40,654 nt of DNA from Candidatus Aldehydirespirator catecholifindens (GCA_028283245.1 JAPYNU010000082.1:1-40654); one strand, 5' to 3'. Positions 810 to 27,500 are shown, counted from the first letter of the stretch. A program made the numbers and translations. Notes: generated by a model not told the origin, from the sequence alone.

Positions 810-857
810 CTCCCTCTTAGTCTCCTCTTAGCTCCCTCTTAGTCTCCTCTTAGCCTG
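803..857. repeat. Five 11-bp tandem repeats (CTCTTAG core) joining two convergent gene ends
   Basis: Units begin at 803, 814, 825, 836 and 847 and alternate CTCTTAGCTCC and CTCTTAGTCTC, so there is also a 22-bp dimer period. Each unit carries TAG on the plus strand and TAA on the minus strand. The upstream gene stops at 807-809 in unit 1 and the helicase stops at 850-852 in unit 5. Because 11 is not a multiple of three, the array places stops in every frame on both strands. Confidence 0.9.
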
Positions 858-3800
858 CTGCGAAACCCATCGTGCAAACGATGCTGGGTTCTGCATCGGC
901 ACCGTCAGACGGCGGCGGCACGCAGAGACGTTTGTCGTTGTGAAGGTCCACCACTAGGGCGGCGAGATCATCCACGCTTCTTTCGCTCAAAGCTCTCGAC
1001 AGGCGGTGAGTGGCTTGCTCATACAGCGAGAGTTCGTTCATGGCATCGTGAGCGGCTGACAGATCGGCTTTTGTGAACAGCAGATTGTCTGCGAGGTTGT
1101 CCATCTGTTCGTGAAGTCTGCGCCAGACTTTGCCCCTCACTCCTTGAAGAGCGCCGGTGGCGCGCCCAGGCGGAGTTCGCAGCGGCCCGCCTAGCGCGAC
1201 TGCGGTCAGGTCGTGATGGTCCGCTAAGCGTGGCGCGCTTGCAGTATTGGGTTGGCATTCGGCGAGACTCAGAGCTTCTTGAGGAGTGACGCGCCGTGCC
1301 TGTCCGTTGGTTTCCACGAAAGCGAAAGCGTCGGCACCGGTCATGTTTTGAGTGTGAACTAGCACGCCGCTGCCGAAGCTTCCACCGTTGGCATCGGTGT
1401 TGCTGTTGTCGGTGTTGCTGTTGCTGTCATTGCTGTCGGTGCTGTCGGCGGTTACGTGTTTGGTGGAATAGACAATGTTGGGCAGCGAAGCCACTCGCTT
1501 GGCAATGTCGGGATGGTTGCGTTCGGCGTGTCGCCAGATCTCATATGCCATTGACACTGGATCAACATCCTCTGCTGCCGTTGTGCCTGGCCCGTAGGCG
1601 GAATGCTCGTCGTAGACACCAGAGATGATCTGACGCTCGCTTGGGTCGCCGAGGAAGGTCTCGTCTGAGCCGAGCAGCCGGGCGTTATCGCCGAGACGCT
1701 GACGGATGCGTCCCCGCAGGTTGATCTCGTCTTCGATCGACTCCGCTGGCAGCAGCGTGTAGACCAGCACTTCGGGTGAGTCTTGGCCGATGCGGTCAAC
1801 GCGTCCGGCTCGCTGCACCAGCTTGACGATGGCCCACGGCAGGTCGTAGTTGACGATGATGTGAGCGTCTTGGAGGTTTTGACCCTCCGACAGAACGTCG
1901 GTGGACACCAGCACTCGCAACTCGTCGGTGACTGTCGTGCCAACGGTTTCGCCTTCGTCGCTGCCGCCGCTGTCGTCGCTGCCATGGCTTTTGCCGATGC
2001 CGATGCGGTCAATGGCGAAGCTGTTGGATTTGGGCGAGAAACGCCGTGCCAGCGCCGTCGGGTTGTCGGAGTCGCCGGTGACCATCCCCACAGCTTCGAC
2101 CCCGCGGCGCAGCAACTCTTCATTCACGTAATGGGCGGTGTCGGCTGCTTCGGTGAAGATCAGCACCTTGGCATCGGGATAACGATGCGTGAGCAGCCTT
2201 GCCAGCGCGTTGATCTTGCCGTCACGCTGAGAGTCCCACGCACCGAAGCGCTCAAGCATCTCTTCGATGACTTCAGCATCGTGGCGTAGGTCTTGCGCTA
2301 AAGAGTCGACGAACATGTGGTGAGGTGCCCAGCGGATCGCTTTGGGGTTCTTGGCTCGCAGTTTGTCGTAGGCAACAGCGGCGGTGTCGTCAGCGGAGTC
2401 ATCAGCAGAGTCGAACAAGGCCGTGACATCACCGTGTTCGCTGCTGTCTTCAGGGTCGGTGTCTACCTCGGCAGCCCACAACGTGTTGTCAACTGAGCCG
2501 ATAGGCACCGGCAGGCGGTTGTGGAGCGCATGTGCTGTGACCAGGTTTCGCAGCCGATGACGACGCAACGTCGCCGTGAACGCAGGCCCCGAAGACGATA
2601 GACGCTTGAACATTGTCACCCTAGTGAATCCCATCAGGTTGCCTCGCGACGATTTCTCTAGGTCATCTACCAGACGACGCTCGGCGGGATCCGCTGGCTC
2701 GAAGTCGTCACTGATGTAGTTGCCGAGGCGGTAGCGGGGCAACAGCAGGTCGCGGATCGCATCAAGCGTGTCGTCTGAAGCCATCGCATGAGCCGGATCA
2801 TCTTTGTCAAGGGTGCGCTCGGTGGGTTTGGGGATCCGTTTAGGGAAGTAGAAGCGTCTACCGGTGCCGAACTCCAGATACCGGCGGCCCTGCTCGTCAA
2901 CCTCGGCGTAGTTGTCTTCAACGAAGCGACGGGTGCGCCGCACCAGATACTGCGACATCAGCGCCTGCCAGTCACCGAGATGTTCCGATCGTTTGAACGC
3001 GCCCAGCGTGGAGGTGCGGCCGTCGCAGGCCAGAGCGAAGTCCGCCTCACCAGCCTCGGCTATAGCCCGCTCGGGCCGCAGGCCCAGGTCAGTGTCGGGC
3101 CGGATGAATAGCGACAACTGCGAAGCGAGATCACCGAGCGCTTTGTTGTAGGGGGTGGCGGTCAACAGCAGCACCCGCGAGTCGTTGTCGGCGATATAGC
3201 TCTGTAGCACGCTGTGGTCGCGGCGCTTATCGCTTCTGAGGTTGTGCGCCTCGTCGATTATCACCAGCCGGTAGCGGCGAGCATCAGGCAGAGTCTGATG
3301 CACCATCGACAGCGACTCAACTTTGCCGCGCACTTCGTATTCGTGCAGATACGACTCCCACATTTCGGTGAGGTTCTTGGGGCACACCACCAATGCCTCG
3401 AAGCCTTGCTCCTCTTGCAGCAGCCGCGCCACAGCGGTGCCCACAAGGGTTTTGCCGAGCCCGACCACATCACCGATCATGGCACCGCCTTTGCTCATGA
3501 TGATGCGCGCCGCGATCTTCACCGCCGCGGCCTGAAAGTCCAGCAGCTTGTCCTTCATTGAGGCAGGCAACCCGTATTCGATGAGCCCCTCGCGGGCTTC
3601 TTTGGAGAGATGCCAGGCCATCTTCAGATACACCAAAAACGGGTCGAGCTGATCCTTCGATGCCCACGAATCGTGCAGCGTGTCGGCCAGTTCGGGCATC
3701 GCATCCACAGTGAACGGATCACACCAGCGGTCCTCGAACCAGCGAGCCAGTTTGTCGGTGGCATCACCGTCCACCACATCTACGTTCAACTCGCCCTGTT

Positions 3801-4308
3801 CACGCAACCCGGCCACTGTCATATTCGATGAACCCACATAACCGATACGAGGCGCGGCGCTGTCGTCACGGTGACACAGATAAAGCTTGGCGTGAAGCCG
3901 ATGCGCTGTGTGCAGTCGCACTTGCACGTCACCGTCGTTGATTTGGCGTAGCAGAGCCCGTAGCGCTGTCTCGTCGCCTTCGCTGGGCAGACCGATCTGC
4001 AACTGCTGGCGATACTCGTCTACCGTCTCGGTTTTGAAGCGGGCAGCCGTGCGATTGTCAGTCGGTTCGGTTGGGCGCATCCGAGTCAGCCGACGCATTT
4101 CTTCGCGAGGTGTTTCGTGGATGCCCACCAGCACACGAGCCTTTGGTGCTCCTGGCCTGCGGGGCAGGGCATCCACTGCGTCGGCTAGCAGTTTCCAGCC
4201 CCGCAGATTGAAATAGCCGATGGCCGCGTCAAGCCGATACGACGAGCCCAACGTCTGAAGCAACTCAGCTTCGGTGCCGCGCTCAATGTTGTCAAGGATC
4301 AGCGGCAT
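850..4308 (-). CDS. PLD-like nuclease domain fused to SNF2-family helicase
   Basis: An 1152-residue protein. Residues about 1-200 form a phospholipase D-like domain with HAKLYLC (His139, Lys141) and GSSNMT (about 160-164), the HxK/N signature of one PLD half-site. An SNF2-type motor follows: Walker A GLGKT (283-287), DEAH (352-355), LTATPYN, and a helicase C domain containing VSTDVLSEGQNL and QRAGRVDRIGQ. Acidic or Asn/Ser-rich linkers interrupt the C-terminal half. PLD-SNF2 proteins occur next to adenine methyltransferases in restriction-like defence loci, and a large N6-adenine methyltransferase lies beyond the toxin-antitoxin pair here. The resemblance to the DrmD/DrmMI pair of DISARM is partial because no DrmA or DrmB is visible. 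ATG 4308 is chosen because upstream in-frame sequence is a 12-bp repeat encoding RQTT. Confidence 0.85.
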   Translation of the reverse strand: MPLILDNIERGTEAELLQTLGSSYRLDAAIGYFNLRGWKLLADAVDALPRRPGAPKARVLVGIHETPREEMRRLTRMRPTEPTDNRTAARFKTETVDEYRQQLQIGLPSEGDETALRALLRQINDGDVQVRLHTAHRLHAKLYLCHRDDSAAPRIGYVGSSNMTVAGLREQGELNVDVVDGDATDKLARWFEDRWCDPFTVDAMPELADTLHDSWASKDQLDPFLVYLKMAWHLSKEAREGLIEYGLPASMKDKLLDFQAAAVKIAARIIMSKGGAMIGDVVGLGKTLVGTAVARLLQEEQGFEALVVCPKNLTEMWESYLHEYEVRGKVESLSMVHQTLPDARRYRLVIIDEAHNLRSDKRRDHSVLQSYIADNDSRVLLLTATPYNKALGDLASQLSLFIRPDTDLGLRPERAIAEAGEADFALACDGRTSTLGAFKRSEHLGDWQALMSQYLVRRTRRFVEDNYAEVDEQGRRYLEFGTGRRFYFPKRIPKPTERTLDKDDPAHAMASDDTLDAIRDLLLPRYRLGNYISDDFEPADPAERRLVDDLEKSSRGNLMGFTRVTMFKRLSSSGPAFTATLRRHRLRNLVTAHALHNRLPVPIGSVDNTLWAAEVDTDPEDSSEHGDVTALFDSADDSADDTAAVAYDKLRAKNPKAIRWAPHHMFVDSLAQDLRHDAEVIEEMLERFGAWDSQRDGKINALARLLTHRYPDAKVLIFTEAADTAHYVNEELLRRGVEAVGMVTGDSDNPTALARRFSPKSNSFAIDRIGIGKSHGSDDSGGSDEGETVGTTVTDELRVLVSTDVLSEGQNLQDAHIIVNYDLPWAIVKLVQRAGRVDRIGQDSPEVLVYTLLPAESIEDEINLRGRIRQRLGDNARLLGSDETFLGDPSERQIISGVYDEHSAYGPGTTAAEDVDPVSMAYEIWRHAERNHPDIAKRVASLPNIVYSTKHVTADSTDSNDSNSNTDNSNTDANGGSFGSGVLVHTQNMTGADAFAFVETNGQARRVTPQEALSLAECQPNTASAPRLADHHDLTAVALGGPLRTPPGRATGALQGVRGKVWRRLHEQMDNLADNLLFTKADLSAAHDAMNELSLYEQATHRLSRALSERSVDDLAALVVDLHNDKRLCVPPPSDGADAEPSIVCTMGFAAG

Positions 4309-4344
4309 GGTCGTCTGCCCTGTCGTCTGCCTTGTCGTCTGCCT
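4309..4344. repeat. Three 12-bp tandem repeats abutting the helicase start codon
   Basis: Units at 4309-4320, 4321-4332 and 4333-4344, plus-strand form TGTCGTCTGCCT (first unit GGTCGTCTGCCC). On the helicase strand each reads AGGCAGACGACA and ends directly before the ATG at 4308. The purine-rich AGG or GGG of each unit is the only ribosome-binding-like sequence near this start, so copy number may influence translation. This is inference. Confidence 0.75.
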
Positions 4345-4386
4345 CGCAGTTGGCCGCACCGGTGTGCGATTCTGGCATTGGTTGAC

Positions 4387-4570
4387 GTGCTAAACCAGCA
4401 TCGACCGTTGTGCAAAATCAGCATTGAGTGTTGTGCAATACCAACATCAGATGCTGTGCGATACCTGCATCCGCTGCTGTGCAAAATCAGCATTGACTGT
4501 TGTGCTAGACCTACATCAGGCTCTGTGCGAAAACTACATCGGTTGCTGTGCAAAACCAGCATTGATGAAG
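4387..4570. repeat. Array A: eight degenerate 23-bp tandem repeats between divergent genes
   Basis: Eight contiguous units start at 4387, 4410, 4433, 4456, 4479, 4502, 4525 and 4548. All begin GTGC, and the common skeleton is GTGC-N7-(G/A)CAT-N8. Units 2 and 5 match at 22 of 23 bases, and units 3/6 and 4/7 are also pairs, giving a 69-bp higher-order repeat. The array fills most of the 359-bp gap between the helicase (minus) and the DUF433 gene (plus), the only long non-coding stretch in the window. Between 4571 and 4667 there is AT-rich sequence with a possible -10 (TATTAT at 4581) but no convincing -35. Confidence 0.85.
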
Positions 4571-4667
4571 GATTCCATGGTATTATGGTTATATGTAAGC
4601 CTATCTGGAGCGCACTGTCGGTGTCTGAAGGCCAGATAGCAGTTCGTTCTGCGTTAGCTTTGGTGCT

Positions 4668-5330
4668 GTGACACAACTTCTGACTGCTGATATCGAGCAC
4701 CCCTCTGACACGGCCGCGCGCCTGTCGAAGGGGATTTACTCGTTCCCGCAGGCGGTGGACATCGTGGGGCGACGCAACGGTGTCCCCCGTGAGCAACTGC
4801 GTCGCTGGCTTGCGGTAGTTGTTGCTCCGACGGGTGGCGCTCACTCCATTGAGACGATCAGCTTCCTTGACTTGGTAAGCCTTGAGGCTGTGTGCCGCTT
4901 TCGCGGAAAAGGAACGTCGCTGCAGAAGGTTCGCAAGGTGCTTGAGGCTCTGCGCAGTGCCGAGCCGGATGTGGCATCTCCGTTGGCTCACCGTTCGTTT
5001 TTTACCGATGGTGTCAATGTGTGGGCCGACGTAGTGGGCAACATCGAAGAGATCGTCGGTCGCGATCGCCGACAAATGGCGTTGCGGGATGCTGTGCGGA
5101 CCTTCGCCGACGAGATCCGCTTTGTCGACGACATCGCTGCAGCCTGGGACATCTCTCCCTGGGTAGGGATTGATCCCAAGGTGTGCTTCGGAGCACCGGT
5201 GGTTCGCGGTACCCGCATTCCTGCGAAGACGATCACGGCCAATCTGGCAGATGCCACTGCCGAAGAGGTCGCCAACTGGTACGAACTGAGCGTCCGTCAG
5301 GTGAGAGGCGTTGCCGAGTTCGCCGCTTAG
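4668..5330 (+). CDS. DUF433-domain antitoxin with N-terminal helix-turn-helix
   Basis: A 220-residue protein. The N-terminal part (YSFPQAVDIVGRRNGVPREQLRRWL) resembles the winged helix of MerR-like regulators. The C-terminal part, about residues 163-220, has the DUF433 signature DPKVCFGAPVVRGTRIPAKTI. DUF433 proteins are antitoxins usually paired with a DUF5615 PIN-like toxin, which is the next gene; the two overlap by 20 bases. The antitoxin probably neutralises the toxin by direct binding and may repress its own promoter. Start GTG 4668 is used. The pair runs opposite to the flanking helicase and methyltransferase genes, so it looks like a module lodged within that locus. Confidence 0.85.
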   Translation: MTQLLTADIEHPSDTAARLSKGIYSFPQAVDIVGRRNGVPREQLRRWLAVVVAPTGGAHSIETISFLDLVSLEAVCRFRGKGTSLQKVRKVLEALRSAEPDVASPLAHRSFFTDGVNVWADVVGNIEEIVGRDRRQMALRDAVRTFADEIRFVDDIAAAWDISPWVGIDPKVCFGAPVVRGTRIPAKTITANLADATAEEVANWYELSVRQVRGVAEFAA

Positions 5331-5742
5331 ACCTGCCGGGTTTCGGTTCTGTCTCGACGCAAACCTCTCATACAGGGCTGCAGATGCCGTTGATTCGAGC
5401 ATTGCTGAAGTTATCCATATCTCGCGTGTAGCCGAACTCTCGGTAGATGAACTCGGTCGCTCCGACGCATCTGACGAGAACATTGCGCGCTGGTGCGCTG
5501 AGAACGAAGTCGTGCTGGTCACATGCGATGATGACTTTCGTGGACGCACTGCCCGCACCAGCGCACTGACAAAGTACGGGGTTGAGGTCATCGTGTTCGC
5601 CTATCAAATCTGCGGCTTACAGAATCAGATCGACACTGTTGCGAGATGTGTGACCAGTTGGCAGAAACGCTTAGAGGTGCTGCCCTATGAGGGGCGTGTC
5701 TGGATTCAGCACAGAACAGGTGGGCTGAGTCCAGATCGGTAG
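5311..5742 (+). CDS. DUF5615 PIN-like toxin
   Basis: A 143-residue protein partnering the DUF433 antitoxin. The family signature is visible: FRFCLDANLSY at the N-terminus, the acidic stretch DASDENIARWCAENEVVLVTCDDDF, and a central GVEVIVF strand. Asp residues in LDAN, SDEN and CDDDF are the expected metal ligands of a PIN-like RNase fold. Members are predicted ribonucleases kept silent by the antitoxin. No ATG or GTG precedes the conserved LDAN, so TTG 5311 inside the antitoxin gene is the probable start, consistent with translational coupling. Its stop lies 11 bases from the convergent stop of the methyltransferase. Confidence 0.8.
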   Translation: MPSSPLRPAGFRFCLDANLSYRAADAVDSSIAEVIHISRVAELSVDELGRSDASDENIARWCAENEVVLVTCDDDFRGRTARTSALTKYGVEVIVFAYQICGLQNQIDTVARCVTSWQKRLEVLPYEGRVWIQHRTGGLSPDR

Positions 5743-5752
5743 TCGTCATCGT

Positions 5753-7741
5753 CTACTCTTTGTTGCCGAAGACCATGCGGTCTCGCAAGTTGCCAGCCGC
5801 TTCAAATGCGTCCTCGTCAAGCCCCCAAGCTTTTGCTAGGAGCCAATCAGCTTTATCGGTTAGATAACGCAGCTTCAGCATGTTGTAGCGACCAACCTTG
5901 ATGCCTGCGTTTGTTTGCCATGCGAGATGTTTGGGCATCTCATTCTGAAGGGTTCTTGACAGCTCGAGTAGAATAACGAGTTCCATGTCACCCGGTGAGC
6001 GCTTGGAAAGCCGTTCGATGTCACCCGGGAACGCTGAAAGCGTGCTGCGGGTGACATGGAACTCGTCGCCGTACATCATCCACCATAAGTAAGCCCATCT
6101 GCCAGCGAGCATCACTAGAGCCAGATCACGGTGTTCGCAGCAATCGAAATAGAGATATCCGGTTCGCTTGCTCTTGGGATTTGCCGCTCGGCCTGTAGTG
6201 GGGTCCACAGATGGCGGCTCGTCCCTGAATACGCTCAAGAAGTACCGTGCAACAGTCTTGAATCCGACTCGGTGCTCAGTAGGTTTGGTGAGCAGACTAG
6301 AAGCAATATTGGAATTTGATTCTACAAGACGACTGACGGACGCGTTGATGACGGGGTCGGAGAAAGGCCACTGAGGAATTGACACGCAGTCGGTTAGCGA
6401 CTTAGTCACACGAACAAACTCAAGGTTATGAAACAACCGATCTCTTGTACTTGACAGCCAACGGTTGCACCTGGTAGTTATGGTATCGCTCGTATATGAG
6501 CGCTCGTTTCTTGCAGTGACGATTGAGTTTCTAACGTCTGCCGATCCAGCAAATAAGCTGTCAGGGCGTTTGGCATATGAGGATGCCCACACATCTCCAA
6601 GTTGTGATCGAAGGAATTCGCGCAGTGATAGGAACTCTCGACTGAAACACAGGGAGTGCATGACTATCATGGCGAAGCGGCCGGTTTTGTTTATTAGGGT
6701 GGTGGCTCGTTCCATGCATACTGCGTAGAGGTCGGGGCATTTTTCGGTTTTATAGCCGACCCAGGTGTAGTCGCTTACCAGGCTGGTCTTGATGTAGGGC
6801 GGGTTGCCGATGACGACATCGAAGCCGCCGTTGCGCCACACGCTTGGGAACTCGACGAACCAATGGAACGGACGATGCGAGTTGCGCCACGCCTCGAAGT
6901 TCTCGGTCTCGTCTCTCATGTCGTGAAGGAGCGTGTCGGCCATGTTGCGAGCGGCATCCAGTTTCGCTCGGAGTTTCTGCTTTGCGCTGGTGTGGTCGAG
7001 GCTGCCCGTGTCGGTCGCCTCCGCCTCGATGTAATCGTCGAAGACTTGCGCGATCTGCTTGGCGGTTGCTTCCACCTGATCAAGCTGGGCCACATGGTCG
7101 AGCCGCTGACTGAACAGCCGCTTAGTAGCGTCGGCTTCGTCGGCAATACCGACCAGCAGATTGCCGGTCTTGATGTTGAAATCCAGATCGGGGAGCGGTT
7201 CCAGCAGCCCCACATCATCGACCTGAGCAGCGAGTTTCAAGAACAGGCGCAGTTTGGCAATCTCGGGAGCTTCGTCCATCAAATCAACGCCGTAAAGGTT
7301 GTTGAGACACAACGTTTTGAGCATCCGGTAACGCTCGCTGGGATGCTTGCGGGCATCGTGCAAGAACTCCGCACATTGTTCATCGCCGTGCCGGTCTTGA
7401 AGCTCGGCGGCTCGCCCCAGCAGCGCCGCATAAAGCGGGTCAAGCACTTCAAGCGCTGCAAACAAAAACGCTCCCGACCCGACAGTCGGATCACAGATCG
7501 TCAACGACCGCAAAACGCCGAAAGCAGTGTCGCATTCTTCGGCTGTGGCGAGCTGAGCGAGATAATCGCCAATCAGTTCGCGCATGTCGAGGTTCTCGGT
7601 TATGGCGTCGTCAATGCTCCAGACACGTTGCGGATCCGACAGGCGCTCAAATTGTTGGCGGTAACGCTGCCGTCGATGCACCACATCGCACCAGCGTTCG
7701 CCTGCAAGCGCAAGCTCGTCGCTGGGCGGTGGCAACTCCAC
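5753..7741 (-). CDS. C-terminal part of split N6-adenine DNA methyltransferase (catalytic half)
   Basis: This is the distal part of a gene that would read 9078 to 5753 if intact. The fragment has 662 residues from a possible GTG at 7741. It carries methyltransferase motif I CDPTVGSGAFLFAAL (about 83-97) for S-adenosylmethionine binding and motif IV GNPPYIK (312-318), the adenine-N6 catalytic motif. A long target-recognition-like region and C-terminal domain follow. The frame stays open upstream through the GGAC repeat to a stop at 7904-7906, with no good ATG. It resembles Eco57I/PglX/COG1002-type methyltransferases of BREX, DISARM and type IIL-like systems. The upstream half is in another frame because of the 16-copy repeat. 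The N-terminal domain and motif X are not on this fragment, so alone it is probably inactive. Confidence 0.85.
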   Translation of the reverse strand: MELPPPSDELALAGERWCDVVHRRQRYRQQFERLSDPQRVWSIDDAITENLDMRELIGDYLAQLATAEECDTAFGVLRSLTICDPTVGSGAFLFAALEVLDPLYAALLGRAAELQDRHGDEQCAEFLHDARKHPSERYRMLKTLCLNNLYGVDLMDEAPEIAKLRLFLKLAAQVDDVGLLEPLPDLDFNIKTGNLLVGIADEADATKRLFSQRLDHVAQLDQVEATAKQIAQVFDDYIEAEATDTGSLDHTSAKQKLRAKLDAARNMADTLLHDMRDETENFEAWRNSHRPFHWFVEFPSVWRNGGFDVVIGNPPYIKTSLVSDYTWVGYKTEKCPDLYAVCMERATTLINKTGRFAMIVMHSLCFSREFLSLREFLRSQLGDVWASSYAKRPDSLFAGSADVRNSIVTARNERSYTSDTITTRCNRWLSSTRDRLFHNLEFVRVTKSLTDCVSIPQWPFSDPVINASVSRLVESNSNIASSLLTKPTEHRVGFKTVARYFLSVFRDEPPSVDPTTGRAANPKSKRTGYLYFDCCEHRDLALVMLAGRWAYLWWMMYGDEFHVTRSTLSAFPGDIERLSKRSPGDMELVILLELSRTLQNEMPKHLAWQTNAGIKVGRYNMLKLRYLTDKADWLLAKAWGLDEDAFEAAGNLRDRMVFGNKE

Positions 7742-9078
7742 ATACTCGGACTGGTCGCCGCTGCGCCACTGCCACGGCCACAGTTCCCCGACCGGCGGAC
7801 GGTCCAGGTCCGTCCGTCCGTCCGTCCGTCCGTCCGTCCGTCCGTCCGTCCGTCCGTCCGTCCGTCCGTCCGAGTCGGCAAGTTTATTCCGTGGGCGAGC
7901 GAGTCATGGAGATATGTGTCACCTGAGCCGGTCAACAGGATCGCCGGGTCTTCTAGTCCGGCAGCCACGAAACGGTCGGCGAGTGCGGGCAGGATTGTCG
8001 ACGCAGCCATATAGCCGGTCACGTCCGGTTTGGTGTAGTAAGCACCCTTCTCTTTTTGGCCTTTCTCGGTGAAGTTGATGTACTGCTCAAAGATGAAACC
8101 GAGAATGTCAGGGTTGATTTCTTTAGGGTCGCCTGTCGGGTTTTCGTCCAGATGCCAGCGCCAAGCATCAAAGAAGTCGAATAACGACTCAAAAGCCTCA
8201 TCGCTGATTTGAATATCGTGAGTGGTTTCCAGTTCGTGAGGCTCGAAGATGCCGCCGTTCACATACGGCACGTCACCGATGATTGTTTTGATCTCGGTAT
8301 CTGAGTAGCTGGGGTCAGGGCTCCCCAGACCTTGATGAAATAGCGGCAATAGGAACTGCTTGTAAAAGGCGTAGAACTGACCGACACCGTAATGCTCACG
8401 CACTTTCTGCAGGCGTGAGCGCAGATAGTGCGGATCGTTGGCGAGGAACCCCTTGCGCTGAATGAAATAGATAAACATCAACCGGTTGAGCAGCACCGAC
8501 GAATACCATCTGCGGCTCTTGGCGGTCGGAATGCCCTCAACCCTCATTGCGAACTTTTTGTGATGCTGCTGGAACTCACGGTAGAAGGATTTGGTCACCT
8601 TGTCGGCGTTGAACGACTTTCGAATCCGTGTCAGCACCGAACTTGAAGTCAGGCAGTCCTCTTCGGCGATGCTGAACTTCGCTTGAGCGAGCCTTTGCAA
8701 CAACGCGTCGGTGGGTTCATGCACCGGATACTCGTGATCCACCAGCCGATAGCCCACGCCGCTGGAACGCTGCTCGGGCCACAGCCACAGGTGCTTGTCA
8801 GGTGCGGTGAACACCACCAACTGGTCGCGGCTGAGCCGTTTGAGGCGGCGCACCACCCGATGCTGCTCTGAGCGCATCGGCAGCCCAGCGGGGCAGTCCA
8901 CCCGCCAAGCAGTCACGCCCTTCTTGCCAGCCACCGCCACCGGCCTCAGCGAACTGTCGGGCACGCTGACCGAATCGCGCTGCTCAGGCTCGGGCTCGGG
9001 GTTGTCCCAGCCCATCCTGCGGAACAGCGCACCAAAATCACCCTGCTGGAGCAGTTTCGACAACTCTTCGTGCTGCAT
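7600..9078 (-). CDS. N-terminal part of split N6-adenine DNA methyltransferase
   Basis: A 492-residue reading frame starting MQHEELSKLLQ. Residues 1-402 are the genuine N-terminal domain of a large Eco57I/PglX-like methyltransferase, ending with the motif X region GAYYTKPDVTGYM (345-357). From residue 403 the frame enters a (GGAC)16 tract translated as repeating RTDG, then runs about 69 residues out of frame relative to the catalytic half and stops at 7600. Gain of one repeat unit (17) or loss of two (14) joins it to the fragment 5753-7741. With 17 units the whole gene is 3330 bp, giving 1109 residues. As sequenced the gene is therefore off. The start ATG 9078 is divergent from the aminotransferase gene 188 bases away. 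Confidence 0.85.
   Translation of the reverse strand: MQHEELSKLLQQGDFGALFRRMGWDNPEPEPEQRDSVSVPDSSLRPVAVAGKKGVTAWRVDCPAGLPMRSEQHRVVRRLKRLSRDQLVVFTAPDKHLWLWPEQRSSGVGYRLVDHEYPVHEPTDALLQRLAQAKFSIAEEDCLTSSSVLTRIRKSFNADKVTKSFYREFQQHHKKFAMRVEGIPTAKSRRWYSSVLLNRLMFIYFIQRKGFLANDPHYLRSRLQKVREHYGVGQFYAFYKQFLLPLFHQGLGSPDPSYSDTEIKTIIGDVPYVNGGIFEPHELETTHDIQISDEAFESLFDFFDAWRWHLDENPTGDPKEINPDILGFIFEQYINFTEKGQKEKGAYYTKPDVTGYMAASTILPALADRFVAAGLEDPAILLTGSGDTYLHDSLAHGINLPTRTDGRTDGRTDGRTDGRTDGRTWTVRRSGNCGRGSGAAATSPSMWSCHRPATSLRLQANAGAMWCIDGSVTANNLSACRIRNVSGALTTP
7808..7872. repeat. Tetranucleotide microsatellite (GTCC)16 inside the methyltransferase gene
   Basis: Sixteen perfect GTCC units (7808-7871) plus one further G; the coding strand reads GGAC repeats. 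The tract lies in a linker between motif X and motif I. Each unit changes the frame by one base. Frame arithmetic: the N-terminal frame is at position 0 modulo 3 and the C-terminal frame at 1, so 14, 17 or 20 units are in frame and 16 is not. In-frame alleles differ only by four-residue RTDG insertions. Long perfect tetranucleotide tracts are the classic substrate for slipped-strand phase variation, as in the mod genes of Haemophilus and Neisseria. Confidence 0.95.
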
Positions 9079-14706: not shown

Positions 14707-14901
14707 CTACCACGGCGCTGAGCGATCCATCCTCTTAGCCGCAGCGAGCGGGTCAGGCTTGCTTGACGGTTCTCCAGCTGCTAGCGCGGCATCGGAGACA
14801 AGTTGTTGAGCGAAGGTTGTTGTCACCTGAGCCGCGTGGCGACGAAGCTGCTCGGTCACCCAACTTGAGAAGGGGATGCTGAGACTGTTGTTGCTTGTCA
14901 T
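14707..14901 (-). CDS. Small 64-residue protein coupled to the surface-protein gene
   Basis: The ATG at 14901 overlaps the TGA of the 906-residue surface protein by four bases, a typical coupled arrangement and the main reason to accept this short frame. The sequence (LSIPFSSWVTEQLRRHAAQ near the start, SKPDPLAAAKRMDRSAPW at the end) has one amphipathic helix and no signal peptide. No family is recognised. It could be cytoplasmic and unrelated to the exported neighbour, or a spurious frame. Confidence 0.4.
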   Translation of the reverse strand: MTSNNSLSIPFSSWVTEQLRRHAAQVTTTFAQQLVSDAALAAGEPSSKPDPLAAAKRMDRSAPW

Positions 14902-17618
14902 GGGTTGAGCTTTTGGCGGGCTCGGTTGACGAAGGTGGCCATTTCCGCGCGGGTGGTTTGCTGGTCGGGACAGAACCGCAGTTCAGGCTCGGCACTGCAT
15001 CCAACGGTGATGCCTGCGGCATACAGAGCAGCGATGTCAGCAGCGTGAACGTTGTCGGTAGCCACATCGGCGAAGTCGGCGGGATCTTGCGGAGTGGGAA
15101 GGTTTAAGGCTCGCACAATGAAGCTAGCCATCTGAGCACGAGTCACCGGCTGGTCGGGACAGAACCGCAGTTCAGGCTCGGCGCTGCATCCGAGTGTTAC
15201 CTCAAGTTCAGCCAAACGTTCAATGAAAGGCGCCCACTTCTGGTCGGCTACCACATCAACGAAGCGCGATGCATCACTAGGTGCAGTGTCGGCACCGTCA
15301 AGAAGGCGCACCATCCATATCGCCATCACCCAGCGCTCAATCGGCTGGTTCGGACAGAACAAGCTAGTTTCGCATTCGGTGCCTGTGAGCAGTCCCGCCT
15401 CCTCGATCGCTTCGATCGCGTCGGTGTGAACACCGGCCATAATGATGTCGACAAAGGCGGTTTCGAACGGCTGTGGCTGTGGTTGCGGCTGTGACGGCGC
15501 AGCCGGTGGCGGACTTCTGCGAATTGGAGTCTGACTCCCGCCGCCTCCGCCGCTGCTTCTGGGGGGTGGACTCACATTGCCACCATTGCTATCGGGAGTT
15601 ACGGAGGGCTGGTTGATTTGGGGGGTGGCTTGATTGCTTGTAGCTGCTTGTGCTGTTTTGCCTGGACCTTCGCCGTCGCTATAGGAGGCGGTTGCTTGAA
15701 GGTAACGCCCTACGTCGCTGCTTTGTGGTGTGTAGCTAGCTGAGGTGGCACCGCTAATCGTGGTCCAAGTGACCTGGTTCGTGGAACGCTGCCAACTCCA
15801 AGTTGTGGAGGTGACCCCGCCGTCGGGGTCTGTGAGAGACGCAGTCAGTGCAGTGCCCATAGTCGGAGCCACAGCCGACAGTGCGACCGTGCCAGGCTCG
15901 TCAACGTTGGTGATGTTGATGGTGACCGTGATTGAGTCGCTGTCACCGCTGGGGTCAGTGGCTGTGACCGTCACCGAATACGTCTGTTGTGACTCATAGT
16001 TGAGAGCCGCCCTGGTTCGCAGTTGTCCTGTAGAGCCATCAATGTTGAAAGAGGCTGCGTCAGTGCCGCCCAAGGTGTATGTCAGCGTGTCGCTGTCAGC
16101 GTCTGAAGCCTCCACCGCAGAGCCGATTGCGGCACCAGAGGCGGTGTTCTCAGCCACGCTGAGTTGCTCTGTTGCCTTCCCGAAGTCGGGTGCCCGGTTA
16201 GGTGTCGCTGTGGCTGTGACCGGATTGCTTAAGGCTGCCTGAGCTGTTTTGCCTGAACCTTCGCCGTCGGTATAGGAGGCGGTTGCCCGCAGATAGCGCC
16301 CCACATCGCTGCTTTGTGGCGTGTAGCTAGCTGAGGTTTCACCGCTGATCGCGCTCCACGAGACTTGGTCCGTCGAACTGTCCCAGACCCAAGTCGTGGA
16401 GGTGACCCCGCCGTCAGGGTCTTGAAGGGTTGCTGTGAGTTCTTTGCCCGTTGCAGGCATGCCTGACGACAGTGTGATCGTGCCGGGTTCGTCAATGTTG
16501 TTGATGTTGATGGTGACCGTGATTGAGTCGCTGGCCCCATCAGGGTCGGTGGCTGTGACCGTCACCGTGTATGAGGACCGCTGCTCGTAGTTGAGCGCAG
16601 CGCTGGTGCTTAGCTGACCTGTTGATCCAGCAATCGTGAAAGAACCGGCATCGGCACCGCTAAGGGTGTAGGTGAGAGCATCGCTGTCGGCATCGGTGGC
16701 TGTGACGGCTGCGCCGATGTTGCTGTTGGTGGGGGAGTTCTCGTCGATGCTTCGACTGGTGGCCGACGAGGCGAACACGGGAGCGTTGTTGGACGGTTCT
16801 GGCTTCGGCTGTGTTTTGCGTATGAATACCAGCTGCGCTATCGGATTGTTGGAGAACTTACCGGTGTTGCGGATGCTGGTGATGGCCTGTTTCGGGTTGG
16901 TATCTGGGTTACTCAATGAGAAGCCTGAGCCGCCCTCGGTGCCAGCATCGTAAGGGAACAGGTCGACCTCTTTGCGGTTAACCCAGTCTGAACCATCATG
17001 CAGTGACAGGTTCGAAACGCCCACGAACCAGTCTGGGGTAGGTGCCACCATCGAAATCAGAGTTACTAGCGGGAAAGACTCAGACACGTCAACGGAGCTG
17101 GTGCGGGTGAAGTTGCGGAGCCCCGATCCGACGTTGATCCACTCTCGGGCAGTTTTTGCTGTGATAGCTGAGTTGACTTCGCCGCGGAAAGTGCCAGTGC
17201 CCCCCGTTTCGGCTACTGACTCAATGCCTGATGTTGCGGTGCCTCCCCGCTCCCAAAACGTGACACTGCTGCCGTGGACTGCGCCTACCATCGTTGTGAA
17301 ATGGGCACCTGAAGGGATTGAGACACCTGACGCCAGCGCTGCGGTGGTCCATTTGCCTTTGAACTGCACTTCGTAGCGCTCCAGAGTCTCAGTTTGATCC
17401 TCTGTCTGGAACACGGTCACCGGCGACGAGTCCTGCTCCTGCGCCGCGGCTAAAGGTGAGACTGTTGAGGCCAAAAATGCGATAATCGTGACGATCGTTG
17501 CGAACCGAAGCCTGCGTATCAATACACCTTTGCGGCTATGAGCTTGTTTGCGGTTTTGTGCTAGTGCAGGAATCCGGCATCTAGTTGATTGTGCAGCGGT
17601 CAAGTGTGCTTGGGTCAC
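14898..17618 (-). CDS. Secreted spondin-cadherin-SLH surface protein
   Basis: A 906-residue exported protein. A signal peptide spans about residues 35-60 after a basic leader (RRLRFATIVTIIAFLASTV...AAA). A spondin-N-type domain (about 78-268) contains KGKWTTAALASGVSIPSGAHF and MVGAVHG. Then come two tandem pairs of a cadherin-like repeat (279-377 and 477-575; DADSDALTYTL, DPDGASDSITVTI) and an Ig-like module (378-468 and 576-665; DPDGGVTSTTWVW, SYTPQSSDVGRYL). A Pro/Gly/Gln-rich linker (666-718) leads to three SLH-type repeats (719-906) with paired cysteines as in GCSAEPELRFCPDQP. SLH repeats anchor proteins to cell-wall polymers, and cadherin and spondin modules suggest calcium-dependent adhesion. 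Start GTG 17618 has GGAGGAG seven bases upstream. Confidence 0.88.
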   Translation of the reverse strand: MTQAHLTAAQSTRCRIPALAQNRKQAHSRKGVLIRRLRFATIVTIIAFLASTVSPLAAAQEQDSSPVTVFQTEDQTETLERYEVQFKGKWTTAALASGVSIPSGAHFTTMVGAVHGSSVTFWERGGTATSGIESVAETGGTGTFRGEVNSAITAKTAREWINVGSGLRNFTRTSSVDVSESFPLVTLISMVAPTPDWFVGVSNLSLHDGSDWVNRKEVDLFPYDAGTEGGSGFSLSNPDTNPKQAITSIRNTGKFSNNPIAQLVFIRKTQPKPEPSNNAPVFASSATSRSIDENSPTNSNIGAAVTATDADSDALTYTLSGADAGSFTIAGSTGQLSTSAALNYEQRSSYTVTVTATDPDGASDSITVTININNIDEPGTITLSSGMPATGKELTATLQDPDGGVTSTTWVWDSSTDQVSWSAISGETSASYTPQSSDVGRYLRATASYTDGEGSGKTAQAALSNPVTATATPNRAPDFGKATEQLSVAENTASGAAIGSAVEASDADSDTLTYTLGGTDAASFNIDGSTGQLRTRAALNYESQQTYSVTVTATDPSGDSDSITVTINITNVDEPGTVALSAVAPTMGTALTASLTDPDGGVTSTTWSWQRSTNQVTWTTISGATSASYTPQSSDVGRYLQATASYSDGEGPGKTAQAATSNQATPQINQPSVTPDSNGGNVSPPPRSSGGGGGSQTPIRRSPPPAAPSQPQPQPQPFETAFVDIIMAGVHTDAIEAIEEAGLLTGTECETSLFCPNQPIERWVMAIWMVRLLDGADTAPSDASRFVDVVADQKWAPFIERLAELEVTLGCSAEPELRFCPDQPVTRAQMASFIVRALNLPTPQDPADFADVATDNVHAADIAALYAAGITVGCSAEPELRFCPDQQTTRAEMATFVNRARQKLNP

Positions 17619-20917: not shown

Positions 20918-21014
20918 TCAGCATCCGTCTAAGCAGCAACTCAACCGCAATCTCTGCCTAAGCAGCTTCAGCGTTTTGCGCCTAATCAGCAACCGAATTC
21001 TTCTACTAAGCAGC
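20914..21014. repeat. Five copies of CTAA(T/G)CAGC joining two convergent gene ends
   Basis: Copies start at 20914, 20929, 20958, 20982 and 21006, the last three spaced by exactly 24 bases. Each carries TAA on the plus strand and TAG on the minus strand. The upstream enzyme gene stops in the first copy (20915-20917) and the AddA-like gene stops in the last (21006-21008). The arrangement mirrors the CTCTTAG array at 803-857. Confidence 0.8.
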
Positions 21015-24000
21015 TGCAGGCATTGCTTGTGCGACAGCAGCCTTTGCCTCAGTAACCGCAGATTCGAGGTCTGCGAGTTCAGCCTCCACGACTTCGGTGT
21101 TGACGGAGTTCATAAACACGAACACCATCCGAGCCACGGTTTCACCGGTCACGGCTTGCAGCGCAGCCGCGTATGCGGCACCTTGCAGACGGTATCGATC
21201 CACTTTGGCGGCGATGTCGGCATCGTCTGTGATCACGTCGGTTTTCCAGTCGACCACTACGAGCCCTTCGCTGCTGCGGTAAACGAGATCGATATAACCC
21301 TCAAGCACACGCTCACCGAAAGACGCAGCCACGAACAGTTCTCGCCAATGCTGTGACTCCGCAGCTTCGCGGGCTACGGTAGTTTCGAGCGCTGCCTGCG
21401 CTAAGGCGGTCACTGTGGAGGTTCGTGAGGTCACACCTTCTGCGCCAGCGTGATGTCTAGCTAGATCTGCGAGACCGTCACGGCTGAGAAGATCAACGTC
21501 TTGCAGCACGGCGTGAACAGCGCGGCCTATAGCGGTGCCGTAACGACCTTTGCGCCACAGGTTGGCATCCTCGTCGCCGGGGTCTTTGTGAAGCCCTGGG
21601 TCAGAGTCGTCTTCGGCTGCGCTATTCGCAGAGCCAGAGTCGGAGTCAGGGTCAGGGCCAGAGCCGGAGTCAGGGTCAGCTGCATCATCAGTTATCCCAT
21701 TGAAGCGGGCGATGCCGCTGGCTGACATTGCGAGCGGCTTTGAAGCCTCCTCAAGGCTGCTTTGCAGTTGCTGAGACCATTCATCGCGATCGGAAAGCTC
21801 GGCACGGTCAAGTTCTGTAGAGGACGTGTCCCGCAAAGTGGTCGGGCCTGCGTCACCTGCTGGCGTGTGGTCAACATCTTGCGTGTCTATGCCCCAAGTG
21901 GCTGTTTGTGCGGCACCTGCATCTACTAAGGCCCAAGCCGCCGTGTTTGGCTTATTGTCGCTCTCGCCAGGGTCTTTGCGATACAGACTCACCACCAAAT
22001 GGTCACAGGCACGAGTGCAGGCCACATACAGCAGACGAAGGCGTTCAGCGGCGTCCATCTGGTCATCTTCTGACTTCCAGGCTTCGTAGTTCTGCGACTC
22101 GACTCCTTTGCGCATTCTCACCGCTGGCTTGCCATCAGAGTCGAAAGCAACGGCCGGGCCTCGGGTGGGTTTCTGAAGCCGAGCGGTCATGCCCGAAAGC
22201 ACCACGACCGGAAACTCAAGGCCTTTGGCTGCATGCACTGTGAGAATGCGCAGGCTGTCGTCGTCGGTTTCGGGCAGCACCGACTCGGTAACACGAGCTT
22301 TGTCGGCACCTTGCAGGCGAGCCCATTGCAAATAGTCACGAAGATTGCTGCCACCAGTGTCGGCCCAGGCTTGAGCCTGATCCATCACAAAACGCAGCCG
22401 CCGCCACACATCGCGGGGTCTTCCGCCAGCCACAGCCGTCTCGAAAGCTCCACGCTCACGGATCAGTCGCGCCAGAAGAGCTGGCGGGCTGGTCCAGCGT
22501 TTCGCTTCATGCAACTCGGCTAGATGAGTGATCGATGCCGCCACCGGGTGATCGGGGTTGTGATCTTGCGGTAGGCGGCTGATCAGCGAGAAACGTCCGT
22601 TGCAGGCACTACGCCAATGAGCTAGATCATCATCACCGCAGCCGTAAAGCGAGGATCGCAGAGCCGCCACCAACGCCAACTCGTCGGTGGGGTCGGCCAC
22701 AGCTTGCAGTGCGTGAAGCGCGTCGCGCACCTCGCGTGTGTTGTAGACCAGCGAAGAAGCTTCAACTCGATACGGGACAGAGGCCTCTTCTAGAGCGTCT
22801 TCAAGATCGGCCAGGCTGTTGCGTGAAGGGATCAATATTGCGATGTCTCCAAAACGCGCTGGTCGCAGTGCTGGCTCGTCAGGCGAACCCTCATCAACAG
22901 ACCATCTGTCGCTGATGACCTGGCTCACTGTTTGGGCTACGGCTTGTGCCTCATGTCGCCGTAACTCGGCTGCGTAAGTGCTGCCTTCCAGTGTGATGGG
23001 ATTCGCTCCGAGCACTGTCACACTGGGACCTGTCGGCACTGGCTCTCGCACTGAGTTCAGCGGCGCATATTCGGGCTGCCTGCCCTCTATTGGTGTGATC
23101 AACTGGCCGAACACGGCGTTGACCCAGTTGATTATTTGATGCGTAGAACGGAAGTTGGTGGTAAGCCCCTCAGTGCGGCCGCTGTCTTGGTCTTCGACCC
23201 ATTGGCGTGCTGTAAGGAAGGTGGCGATGTCGGCACCGCGGAAACGGTAGATGGACTGTTTAGGGTCACCAACGAAAAACAGTCGGCCTGGGTCGGGTGT
23301 CGTGTCCGTCCAGCTAGATGCCCCAGCAGCGCCTTCGCTACATCCGAGGAGCGCGGCGAGTTCAACCTGGATCGGGTCTGTGTCTTGAAACTCGTCGATC
23401 AGCAGATGCCGGTAGCGCTCACGCAGAGCCTCTCGAACCGCTGGTCCGTGTGTGGAGTGGCGCAGCAGCCCCCGGGCTTGCACCAGCAGGTCATGAAACT
23501 CAAGACGGCCACCGGTGCGCCGCTGCTCGGCGGCGTTCAAGGTGAAGACGGCAAGTCGCGCTACTAGGCACGTCAACGCAGCCTCGGCTGCGGCTTGCAG
23601 CGCATGTTGGCAGATGTCTTTCAGATGAGTGATGCTGTCTCGGGCATCTTGAACCTTGCCACTCCAGTTATCGGCCTTGCCATACTTGGTTCCTTTGCAT
23701 TCTCGCTCGGTGGCCAGCAGCGCTTCGATACGTTCAGCAGCGATGTCGTGGATGTCGGCGATTTCATCGGTTTTGCTGTCCTTGGCGAGCGCAAGTTCCA
23801 GCCGACTGCGCTGCTTGGCGATCGTGTTTATGCGATTCAGTAGTTTGTCGTCGGCGTCTGTGCAGAACGGACGCAGGGCGATCAAATGGTTAAGCGCAGC
23901 GAGCGCCTCGACCACGTCAACGGCGCGAAGATCGGTTTCGAGGCTCAGTTCACACCGCTCTAGGCGGTCCCAGTTGTTGTTGAGTTGAACGGCCAGAGCA

Positions 24001-24515
24001 CGAACCTGATTGAGGTTCACTCCTTGCACTTCGAGCCCCAACAGGGTTGGTGCCATGGCGGTCTCGTCAAGGAGTTCATCAAGGAATTCGCGCCAGCGAA
24101 CATCGAACTCGATCTGTGATCCGATGTCGTCAAGTACTTCCACTCTGGGAGGTAGTCCTGCCTCTATCGGATGCTCCGACAGGATGCGCTGCGCGAAGGA
24201 ATGCAGAGTGCCCACCGCTGCGCCGTCGAGCTGCTGCAAAGCCGCAGCCGTGCGCTCTCGCCCCAAATCTGCAAGGGTTTCGGTGCTTTTGAGGCGGGCG
24301 CGGATCCTGTCACGGAGTTCGGCAGCGGCTTTCTCGGTGAAGGTAATAGCTGCGATGTTCTCCATCGGCACACCTGAGCCGATGAGTGCCAGCACTCGGT
24401 CGACAAGCGCTTTGGTTTTGCCTGAGCCTGCTCCTGCTTCTACGAACAGCGTGCTGCTCAGATCGGATCTGATCGCCTCTCGGTTTGCTTGGTCCGCTAA
24501 CTGCGATGAGGTCAC
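21006..24515 (-). CDS. addA: AddA-type UvrD helicase with C-terminal PD-(D/E)XK nuclease
   Basis: A 1169-residue protein. It has all SF1A helicase motifs: Walker A EAGAGSGKTKALV (about 26-38), LIDEFQDTDPIQ (motif II), VGDPKQSIYRFRGAD (III), TTNFRS (IV) and LTVHAAKGLEFPVVV (V). A RecB-type nuclease domain sits at the C-terminus (GRAVHAVLQ, GYIDLVY, VVVDWKTD). An acidic Asp/Ser/Pro linker of about 30 residues precedes it. With its partner it would unwind and resect double-strand breaks for RecA loading and degrade linear foreign DNA. The ATG overlaps the stop of the AddB-like gene by four bases, so they form one operon. Actinobacterial AdnB is an alternative family name. Confidence 0.88.
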   Translation of the reverse strand: MTSSQLADQANREAIRSDLSSTLFVEAGAGSGKTKALVDRVLALIGSGVPMENIAAITFTEKAAAELRDRIRARLKSTETLADLGRERTAAALQQLDGAAVGTLHSFAQRILSEHPIEAGLPPRVEVLDDIGSQIEFDVRWREFLDELLDETAMAPTLLGLEVQGVNLNQVRALAVQLNNNWDRLERCELSLETDLRAVDVVEALAALNHLIALRPFCTDADDKLLNRINTIAKQRSRLELALAKDSKTDEIADIHDIAAERIEALLATERECKGTKYGKADNWSGKVQDARDSITHLKDICQHALQAAAEAALTCLVARLAVFTLNAAEQRRTGGRLEFHDLLVQARGLLRHSTHGPAVREALRERYRHLLIDEFQDTDPIQVELAALLGCSEGAAGASSWTDTTPDPGRLFFVGDPKQSIYRFRGADIATFLTARQWVEDQDSGRTEGLTTNFRSTHQIINWVNAVFGQLITPIEGRQPEYAPLNSVREPVPTGPSVTVLGANPITLEGSTYAAELRRHEAQAVAQTVSQVISDRWSVDEGSPDEPALRPARFGDIAILIPSRNSLADLEDALEEASVPYRVEASSLVYNTREVRDALHALQAVADPTDELALVAALRSSLYGCGDDDLAHWRSACNGRFSLISRLPQDHNPDHPVAASITHLAELHEAKRWTSPPALLARLIRERGAFETAVAGGRPRDVWRRLRFVMDQAQAWADTGGSNLRDYLQWARLQGADKARVTESVLPETDDDSLRILTVHAAKGLEFPVVVLSGMTARLQKPTRGPAVAFDSDGKPAVRMRKGVESQNYEAWKSEDDQMDAAERLRLLYVACTRACDHLVVSLYRKDPGESDNKPNTAAWALVDAGAAQTATWGIDTQDVDHTPAGDAGPTTLRDTSSTELDRAELSDRDEWSQQLQSSLEEASKPLAMSASGIARFNGITDDAADPDSGSGPDPDSDSGSANSAAEDDSDPGLHKDPGDEDANLWRKGRYGTAIGRAVHAVLQDVDLLSRDGLADLARHHAGAEGVTSRTSTVTALAQAALETTVAREAAESQHWRELFVAASFGERVLEGYIDLVYRSSEGLVVVDWKTDVITDDADIAAKVDRYRLQGAAYAAALQAVTGETVARMVFVFMNSVNTEVVEAELADLESAVTEAKAAVAQAMPAAA

Positions 24516-27500
24516 GATGCCCCCTCGACTGGTTGTGCCGTTGCTTGCGCCGTTGCCTGATCCTGCTCACGATCAGGGTCGACAAGGTCCAAGTAGCTAG
24601 CCAGATCTGGGTCGCCTTGTTTGCGCTGCCAGTCGCGCCACTGGTCACGGGTGCCTAAACCGTCGGGATCGCAGTAGTCACACGACACCCACGGCTGCCC
24701 GCTGGGTTCATCAGGATGCAACGGAAATAAACCGTCGTTGATCCCGTCAATGATGGTATTGACGGCTTCGAGCACCTGTGGGCGAGCGTCATCGGTGGGG
24801 TAGCCGACGTCTTGGAACTGTCCCTTGGTCGAAACGAACCAGTAAGCACCATGACTGCTTGCGGCTTGCGAGATGTTGAGCAGCGTGCGGGCTGCTAGGC
24901 CATATAAGACGAGCTGGAGACGGCTGCCACCGAGTGTCGGATCATCAACGCTGAGCTTCTCGTATGACTTGGCGGAGCCTGTCTTGTAGTCGATTACTAG
25001 CAGGCCTCCGTCGAGGGTGTTGTCGATGCGGTCGATAGAGCCGCGAACGTTCACGAAGCGACCGTCGCTGATTTCGATGCTGACAGAACCGCGTTCGCTG
25101 CCTGGCAAACCGAAATCGAGTTCCGCTTTGGCGGGCTTCGAGTTGTAGAGCGTGCGCTGCTCGTCGTCGAATTCCAAGAAGCGGACAAGGTCTTCCGCGA
25201 TCTGGCGGCGGTCGTGCTGCCAGTAGAGCTGGCGTCCGACCAGCCCACGAGCGGCGAACTTGTCGCATTCTTGTGCGGCTAGTTCAAGCAGTCGAGCTTG
25301 TAGTCGTTCGGGCCAATGTTGTCTGGGTTCAGGCACAGCATCGTCGGCGATGGCTTCGCTGAGCCAAAGTTCGAGGATGCGATGCACGAGGCTGCCGCGT
25401 TCCAGCGGGGTGATGCGGTAGTCGTCGTCAGCATCGTCAACAGGATCTACCTTCAAGACGTAGCGCATGAAGTAGGCGTGAGGGCATCGCGCCCATAACT
25501 CCAGCCGCGAAGCCGAAACCGTAGTGCCGTCAATGTCGGGACGTGCCAAAGTCGCGCCTCGTAACTGGCCTGCCGACAGGTTGCCATCGAAGCGAGTCAA
25601 CTTTGACGACATGCGGGCTCGGCGCATTTCGATGCCTCGCCGTAGTTCCGGCCGAAGCCGCACTCCCGGTATCTGGTCGAGTTCGTTCCATCGGCTGGTG
25701 TCGCGGTTTTTGGAGTCGTGCCAGTCGAGCAGGCAGCGCGTGTCGTACTCTTGTGTATGCGCCGGGAAAGCTGTGCGACGCAGCCCAGCCACAAATGACG
25801 GCACCACTTCGGGTTCGCCCGCATAGTCGAGCAGCCAGCGGCTCGGTGAACGGTCAGCGGCTCGGCGTAGATCACCTCTGGGGCACAAAAGCAACGTTTC
25901 ATCTGCGGCGGCTAGCACGGCTACTAGCGCCCGATGATCATCGCCTGACCGGTCGCCTCGGGCAGGCAGATCATTACCAACGACACGCCGTTCGCGATCA
26001 GGCAACAGCGTGTCGTCGCTACGGTGAGCCGGGAAAGCACCCTCAGCCATGCCGCACACCACCGCAAGGTCGAGTTCCATGCCGACCGCCATACTCACCG
26101 GACCCACAAACACTCCCCAGCCCAAGCGTCCGTGCTGGCTTGACGAGGTCTCCATTTCGTGGCGCAAAGCTCGTCGGAACACTGCAACCGAGGCTGGCTC
26201 TCCCGTGCTGTCAAGCTCGCTCAGCCATTTAATGGCCTGATCGACGCGGCTGGCCATCTCACGTTCGTCGTCGGGCCAACTAGAGCGGGTTCTGCCTCCC
26301 AGGTATTTATGCACAAGGTCTTGGCACCACTTCGACATTTCCGCCCATGAACCCAGCGGTTTTGACGGGTTCAGGTCGCTGTGCAGCTCTGTTATGAAGC
26401 TGCGAAGTTCGTCGGCTCGCAGGGCACTGCGAAGCACGCTCTGTGTTCTCCACGACTGTTCTTCATCGCCTTGTAGTCGGTCGGCTTCGTCTCGGCGGTC
26501 AGCGGCGTAGCGTTCGAGCCGTTGCTGCCAACTGTCGATTCCTGCTTCAACTCTGGCTGCCCGAGCGATTCGCTCCCAAGCCGCTGTGGGAGCGCTCTGC
26601 CATTGGCTGCCGGTTGAAGCGCCGCCGGTTGTGTCGCCGCCAGCTGAAGCGCCGCCGGTTGTGTCGCCTGCAGCTTCGGTGCTTTGATGATCGGCTAGGC
26701 GCACACTGGTGGGCGCACCGGCCAGCCATGCCATCACAGACCGACGCGAGAAACCTCGGCCTTGTACTTTTGTGCTGGGCTCGCTGTCTGTAAGTGCCAG
26801 CATCTCCAGCAGCGACCGACCCAGAAGCGATGTCTCCACAGTGCGCACCGTTGATCCGCATCGTGGGATAGCTGCTGCGTCCAAAGCGTCGCTTAGCAGA
26901 CGGGCATACGGTGCGTCGAGCCCGTAGAGAATGGCGCATCGACCCAGTGGCGTGCCTTTGCGGGCTGCGTCAACCACGGCCCGTACTGCGTGTCGCACCT
27001 CGTCGTCAGCATCGGACAAGCTCACGGCCCGCACTCCGTCATCTGTTGGTCTGAGGGCGGATGGTTCTGGATGGGGTGCCGTTTGGGGAGCGGTCTGGTT
27101 TACGCCGAGTTGCTGCAAGCAAGCCCAGACGGCTGCGTCGGCATCTTGCGCCCCAGTGAGCCCTGCGATGATTTTGATGCCGATCGTCTCAGCCAAAGCA
27201 CGCAGCAGCAGCGTCTGGGTGCGAGTGAAGCTTTGCGGCAGAAACACGATCACCGGGCCAAGCTTTTGTTGTGCCTGATCAGGGTTGGCTCGCACCAGTT
27301 TTTCAGCAGCCTCAGCTAGTTGCGGCGAAGATGTAAACCCAGCAGCGTCAAGGTCAGAGGCCACCTGTCGATGAATTCGCACAACATCTCGAGCGCGCGG
27401 CGACTCGTGTGCGAGTTTCTTGAGTTGTGCGTCGGTTAGTTCCGATAATTCGCGGTGTGCTCGTGTGAGAGCCAGTTCAGTGGCGGGATGGTTTTCGACA

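Follow-up and report, generated by a model that had tools for sequence, protein, structure and literature searches.

Is the large adenine methyltransferase gene of Candidatus Aldehydirespirator catecholifindens, which is interrupted by a perfect tetranucleotide array, switched by this array, or is the gene simply broken? The question was addressed for the window, i.e., the whole analysed stretch of DNA of 40,654 nucleotides, for the remaining genome and for related loci. In our judgement, the gene very probably provides the methylation and the probable specificity function of a two-gene RM-like system, composed of an Eco57I-type methyltransferase and a PLD-nuclease/SNF2-helicase, and is switched by slipped-strand mispairing.

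The GGAC Tract Separates Two Parts of One Methyltransferase Gene

TRF analysis of the window detected a perfect period-4 array at positions 7808–7872 (16.2 copies, 100% match). Read on the minus strand it consists of (GGAC)16 plus one base and is located in the linker that joins motifs X and I of the methyltransferase. Since it is the sole GGAC array of at least 6 units in the 2.59-Mb genome, it is not a chance occurrence. The N part of the 16-unit allele (7600–9078, minus strand; 492 aa from its ATG) is composed of approximately 402 conserved residues containing motif X (GAYYTKPDVTGYM), the RTDG repeats and an out-of-frame tail. Its conserved N-terminal region of 402 aa (7873–9078, minus strand) shows 60–82% identity to the corresponding region in relatives. 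The C part (5753–7741, minus strand; 662 aa from the first GTG) matches the Pfam family Eco57I with an E-value of 5.6e-26 and carries motif I (DPTVGSGAFLF), motif IV (NPPY), a variable target-recognition region and a conserved C-terminus. According to the alignment, the conserved C frame extends upstream of this GTG up to the tract (..RPPVGELWPWQWRSGD..). Because both parts fit a single PADLOC profile of 1100 positions, PDLC03628 (N part: positions 9–361, E 2.3e-85; C part: positions 423–1020, E 1.1e-89), the two halves are, judged by their sequence, one gene for a predicted Eco57I-type adenine methyltransferase. Outgroup homologues without a linker tract are found as a single ORF, with 1100 aa encoded on Synechocystis pSYSX and 1127 aa at locus L021; the L021 gene contains an in-frame C10 run outside of the linker.

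The consequences of changes in unit number were calculated by translation of the gene for every count from 0 to 25. An open frame resulted at 2, 5, 8, 11, 14, 17, 20, and 23 units, and the frame was closed at 16 units, the count found in the assembly consensus. The computed full-length products comprise 1105 aa (14 units), 1109 aa (17 units), and 1113 aa (20 units), with one RTDG added per three extra GGAC units. An earlier note on this DNA had stated that sixteen units separate two frames holding motif X, DPTVGSG and NPPY, which was confirmed by TRF and translation. Its further statements, that 14, 17 or 20 units restore the frame and 16 do not, and that the tract sits in a linker, with in-frame alleles differing by RTDG, were reproduced by the unit-by-unit translation.

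Between conserved flanks, the alignment of the methyltransferases contains a strongly variable region, as expected of a target-recognition domain. Among otherwise similar relatives this region looks like a mosaic (columns ~380–520 of the A2 alignment, L025–L042), which suggests an exchange of specificities. With regard to a possible Type IIG nature of the enzyme, the best profile for the methyltransferase, PDLC03628, is a IIG model. The N part yielded zero Pfam matches, a clear PD-(D/E)XK motif was not seen in it, and a fold search with its structural model (pLDDT 70) gave no match at E <= 0.001. The AlphaFold2 model of the C part (pLDDT 51) was too poor for use, and nothing was found for the C part in a PDB sequence search.

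Related Loci Carry Different Tracts at the Same Sites

Homologues were available from about 25 distinct loci, nearly all of them from metagenome-assembled Acidimicrobiia. The isolate names of these relatives resemble those of sponge-microbiome projects, and the relatives appear to be marine-sponge symbionts. Relationships among the loci were deduced from the helicase tree. Most related loci that were readable at the linker carry a slippable tract there, and after pooling of rotations nine different units were counted (GGAC, CGAC, TCGG, CAGT, CCAG, TC, G, C, and GCCCA). Tetranucleotide tracts were observed at L025 ((CGAC)13), L026 ((CGAC)12), L029 ((TCGG)9(ACGG)5), L034 ((GGAC)16), L042 ((CCAG)14), and L033 ((GGAC)14-gap-(ACGG)14, with a scaffold gap inside the tract). 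For L032/L055 a (CAGT)13 tract was found at both contig ends, the contigs breaking inside the tract. Shorter units were represented by L030 ((TC)12), L031 ((TC)9), L027 (G9), L043 (G10), L049 (G13), and L035 (C10), and a pentanucleotide by L037 ((GCCCA)5). The close relatives L028 and L041 are tract-free. The nine units and the tract-free state add up to ten states, and therefore at least nine changes must have occurred. The GGAC unit is scattered across the helicase tree. L034 and L042 carry different units (GGAC versus CCAG) at a dS of 0.16 in the N part. L025 and L026 have the CGAC unit in common with different counts and opposite frame shifts.

A second site, located just after motif I, is occupied in a sister clade by (TG)15 at L020 and G13 at L040, and one assembly shows a contig break at this site (L024/L039). 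In the window and in 232 kb of related loci, all repeats above a fixed threshold lie inside the homologous methyltransferase gene with one exception, a G11 run about 90 nt upstream of the methyltransferase gene of L043. Tract length and frame differ between related genomes (L025/L026, L030/L031), a comparison made between species only. Neither one common unit number nor homologues encoded as two repeat-free genes, both of which had been named beforehand as observations that would speak against a switch, were found between these species. The comparison points to a conserved switching site with a replaceable switching sequence, i.e., to units exchanged at two fixed positions of the gene. Jointly with the multi-locus phasome outlined in the last section, we favour this reading with moderate confidence.

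Frame States, Selection and Alternative Explanations

Fourteen tract-bearing loci were assembled across the tract. Here, the frame was shifted by −1 in seven and by +1 in six cases and was maintained in a single one. If one third of the alleles were expected to be in frame, this corresponds to a P of ~0.03, hence a mild excess of the off state. With only one of the 14 loci in frame, off alleles may predominate, or decay may affect part of the copies. A decaying pseudogene with a permanently broken frame and an incidental repeat would account for the out-of-frame state of almost all assembled alleles, and certain copies indeed look damaged: in L041 an in-frame TAG follows the linker, the C part of L042 is interrupted by ~1 kb, and the N part is missing from L036. 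However, the dN/dS of the C part, compared between mostly-off alleles, is 0.13–0.41 and similar to that of the N part (0.07–0.35); for L030 versus L031, both off, it amounts to 0.13. Such values for a part that is unread in off alleles argue against decay, and the frame behind the tract apparently stays under purifying selection. In most loci nothing but a pure tract, placed at either of two fixed sites, breaks the frame; the catalytic motifs remain intact, and so does the open frame of the partner helicase. A pseudogene is therefore considered unlikely.

Programmed frameshifting over the tract, either ribosomal or transcriptional, would produce the full protein at any unit number. It would be compatible with a common off state, and the poly-G/C runs of some relatives could be slippery. 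Against it stands the observation that +1 and −1 shifts are both frequent and about equal in number, which makes a programmed event improbable; the units comprise 1, 2, 4 or 5 bases, and a common slippery heptamer or stop geometry was not seen. Overall, we regard frameshifting as very unlikely. Just as improbable is an arrangement of two genes that encode separate N and C subunits, the latter translated from a start of its own, with the tract serving as a spacer. Each of the two ORFs is long and a GTG start is available for the C part at 7741, but conserved residues (PPVGELWPWQWRSGD) are found upstream of the first start codon of the C frame and reach the tract, and the outgroup homologues from Synechocystis and L021 consist of one ORF. 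Least probable of all is an assembly artefact in the repeat number, and hence in the off state: short-read metagenome assemblies are poor at repeats, as the contig breaks in the L032/L055 tract and the gap in the L033 tract illustrate, but tracts with different units and unique flanks occur in many independent assemblies, and miscounted units would alter the on/off call, not the switch.

Thus, phase variation of the methyltransferase by slipped-strand mispairing is strongly supported by the comparative data, with the intact partner gene and the tracts in further restriction genes of this genome as additional evidence. The tracts of the relatives, the frame shifts in both directions, the purifying selection and the single-ORF outgroups all favour the proposal of the earlier note, a large phase-variable adenine methylase whose gene is divided by a slippable tract. 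Such switching may also alter the methylome and the defence state of the lineage, as the note had suggested.

The Partner Helicase and the Proposed Mechanism

The partner gene (850–4359, minus strand) encodes a protein of up to 1169 aa with a PLD-type nuclease domain and an SNF2 helicase, as deduced from Pfam and PADLOC profile matches. Its probable start is an ATG near 4308. The gene is intact, it is open beside the methyltransferase gene in the relatives, and repeats above the threshold were not found in it. That the helicase remains intact while most methyltransferase alleles are off argues that, on its own, it would not cleave unmodified self DNA. By analogy to Type I, Type III and BREX systems, we infer that the helicase needs the methyltransferase for recognition.

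In the proposed mechanism, GGAC units would be gained or lost through replication slippage, and the unit number would differ among cells. One unit number in three would give rise to the full methyltransferase of ~1105–1113 aa; other numbers, such as the assembled 16, would yield a truncated N part, which lacks the motifs for SAM binding and catalysis. An open allele would methylate adenine within a short site, and the helicase-nuclease would restrict only in combination with the methyltransferase. Given this dependence, switching off would not be suicidal. The benefit might consist of bet-hedging against phages or foreign DNA, or of an epigenetic regulon.

Between the methyltransferase and helicase genes, two genes are located on the plus strand, for an antitoxin-like DUF433 protein (4668–5330) and for a toxin-like DUF5615/PIN-like protein (5311–5742) pairing with it; only some of the relatives have this pair. 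The helicase and methyltransferase genes of Synechocystis are separated by another pair, composed of a small ORF and VapC. A 430-aa ORF on the minus strand (4299–5591) was considered as a third gene of the system and rejected as an antisense reading, the DUF433/DUF5615 pair on the plus strand being the real genes. A 23-nt/69-nt minisatellite (4387–4565) is located upstream of the helicase gene, between it and the toxin-antitoxin pair. A similar one occupies the same place in L032 (4560–4835), and the 69-mer is present in 2.3 and 4.0 copies in the two relatives.

Further genes of the window were also recorded. A second RM pair is formed by a Type II restriction enzyme (28131–28778; PDLC03566, E 9e-46) and a D12-class adenine methyltransferase (28927–29832), with a 20-nt direct repeat (28794–28833) between the two genes. 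Two large minus-strand genes (21006–27931), one with UvrD helicase and PDDEXK domains and one with PDDEXK, are AddAB-like. A 906-aa protein (14898–17618) combines Spondin_N, cadherin, Ig/PKD, and SLH domains. It is a eukaryote-like, secreted protein, a type that has been described for bacteria living in association with hosts.

Comparison to Known Systems

In the Type I and Type III phasevarion genes (hsdM, mod) of Haemophilus and Neisseria, SSR tracts within the methyltransferase gene switch expression. The locus described here shares the position of the SSR tract inside a methyltransferase gene, but the enzyme is of the Eco57I type and the host is uncultured and not a known pathogen. A homologous two-gene locus is present on plasmid pSYSX of Synechocystis PCC 6803 (NC_005232), with a helicase of 39% identity (WP_011153866), a methyltransferase of 33–39% identity (WP_011153869), and a toxin-antitoxin pair between them. 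In contrast to the locus investigated here, the pSYSX methyltransferase gene is tract-free and forms one intact ORF, and the helicase gene comes first.

Cj0031 of Campylobacter jejuni is a phase-variable Type IIG enzyme with a poly-G tract and is itself a nuclease (PMC4889913). Both enzymes are large single-chain adenine methyltransferases with an SSR inside their coding sequence and a variable target-recognition region, and both genes appear as two ORFs when switched off. Here, however, the probable nuclease is encoded by the separate PLD-SNF2 gene, the repeat units comprise 1–5 nt, and the host belongs to the Acidimicrobiia. PglX of Streptomyces coelicolor, the methyltransferase of the anti-phage system Pgl, is switched by a G-tract SSR (PMC4365076) and is likewise an actinobacterial methyltransferase with an SSR in its gene. 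Unlike for Pgl, pglW, pglY and pglZ were not found at the present locus, the methyltransferase belongs to another family, and the tract is a tetranucleotide one. The DUF499-centred, BREX-related Hma systems are RM-like and combine an N6-methyltransferase with a Swi2/Snf2 helicase-nuclease (PMC12839542). This composition is also found here, but the DUF499 ATPase is not: none was detected among the scanned ORFs of the window, and one is encoded elsewhere in the genome, on C75. PglZ and BrxC/PglY were equally not found among the scanned window ORFs, where PglX models scored far below their cut-off. With PglZ, BrxC and DUF499 missing from these ORFs and a PLD-SNF2 helicase as partner, the link to BREX drawn in the first reading of the sequence holds as an analogy only. 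Assignment to DISARM class 1 was not made, since drmA, drmB and drmC were absent from the scanned ORFs and the only resemblance was DrmD-like and DrmMI-like, with the DrmD similarity far below the NCBIfam cut-off.

Among pathogens, phase variation of methyltransferases is a familiar phenomenon. In the literature we consulted, the lineage, the two-gene system, the turnover of units at fixed sites and the restriction-centred phasome appear to be new. Sponge microbiomes have been reported to be rich in defence genes (PMC5099237, PMC5649159), and SSR phase variation in sponge symbionts was not found in the open-access library searched. Close relatives that have exchanged their repeat units at one fixed coding position offer a natural experiment on the origin and the persistence of contingency loci.

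Further Tracts in the Same Genome

The whole genome contains 21 poly-G/C runs of 10–14 nt. For comparison, a 284-kb sample contained 25 G/C runs of length 6, one of length 7, and none of length 8 or 9. Nine of the 21 long runs are located outside the window, inside eight other methyltransferase, restriction or defence genes, several of them out of frame. Out-of-frame runs were found in genes for an HmaB-like adenine methylase (G13; C4:1296), a type ISP enzyme (G12; C66:57961; profile positions 4–431 and 442–1210 on either side), a DUF499/HmaC ATPase (C12; C75:34848; profile positions 7–70 and 77–693), and a type III Mod (G11; C100:870). Those in HsdM (C11; C67:87064) and in an ISP-like protein (G13; C80:29900) are in frame. 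A type IIG/DrmMI-like methylase gene carries two G13 runs (C61:93503 and 93998), one of which adjoins an assembly gap, and in an IIG-like methylase gene the contig ends in G11 (C59:21189). Such terminal runs may be artefacts. A poly-G count of 119 relatives was of partial use only, since in several genomes contigs terminate in long poly-G, which probably arose during sequencing. For this reason little weight was given to runs of the investigated genome at or near contig ends (C11, C43, C48, C66:393, and C102), and C59 was regarded with caution.

Including the (GGAC)16 gene, the number of candidate switches in genes for restriction and defence amounts to nine. They would make up a multi-locus phasome of about nine genes, covering types I, III, ISP, IIG, and BREX-related, and centred on restriction and defence in a probably sponge-associated uncultured actinobacterium, a reasonable and somewhat favoured interpretation. 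C. jejuni genomes contain 12–29 poly-G/C tracts (PMC4889913). The 21 runs counted here are close to that number, but a large share of them resides in restriction and methylation genes. If the phasome exists as proposed, the cells of a clonal population would form a mosaic in which up to hundreds of different immune and methylome states coexist. The pattern points to a bacterium outside the known pathogens switching its immune genes at random, and the genome lends itself directly to testing phase variation as a form of population-level phage immunity.

Two poly-C runs (C36:32449 and C46:62104, the latter out of frame) are positioned near the start of large proteins that look like secreted proteins with a signal peptide, possibly phase-variable surface proteins.
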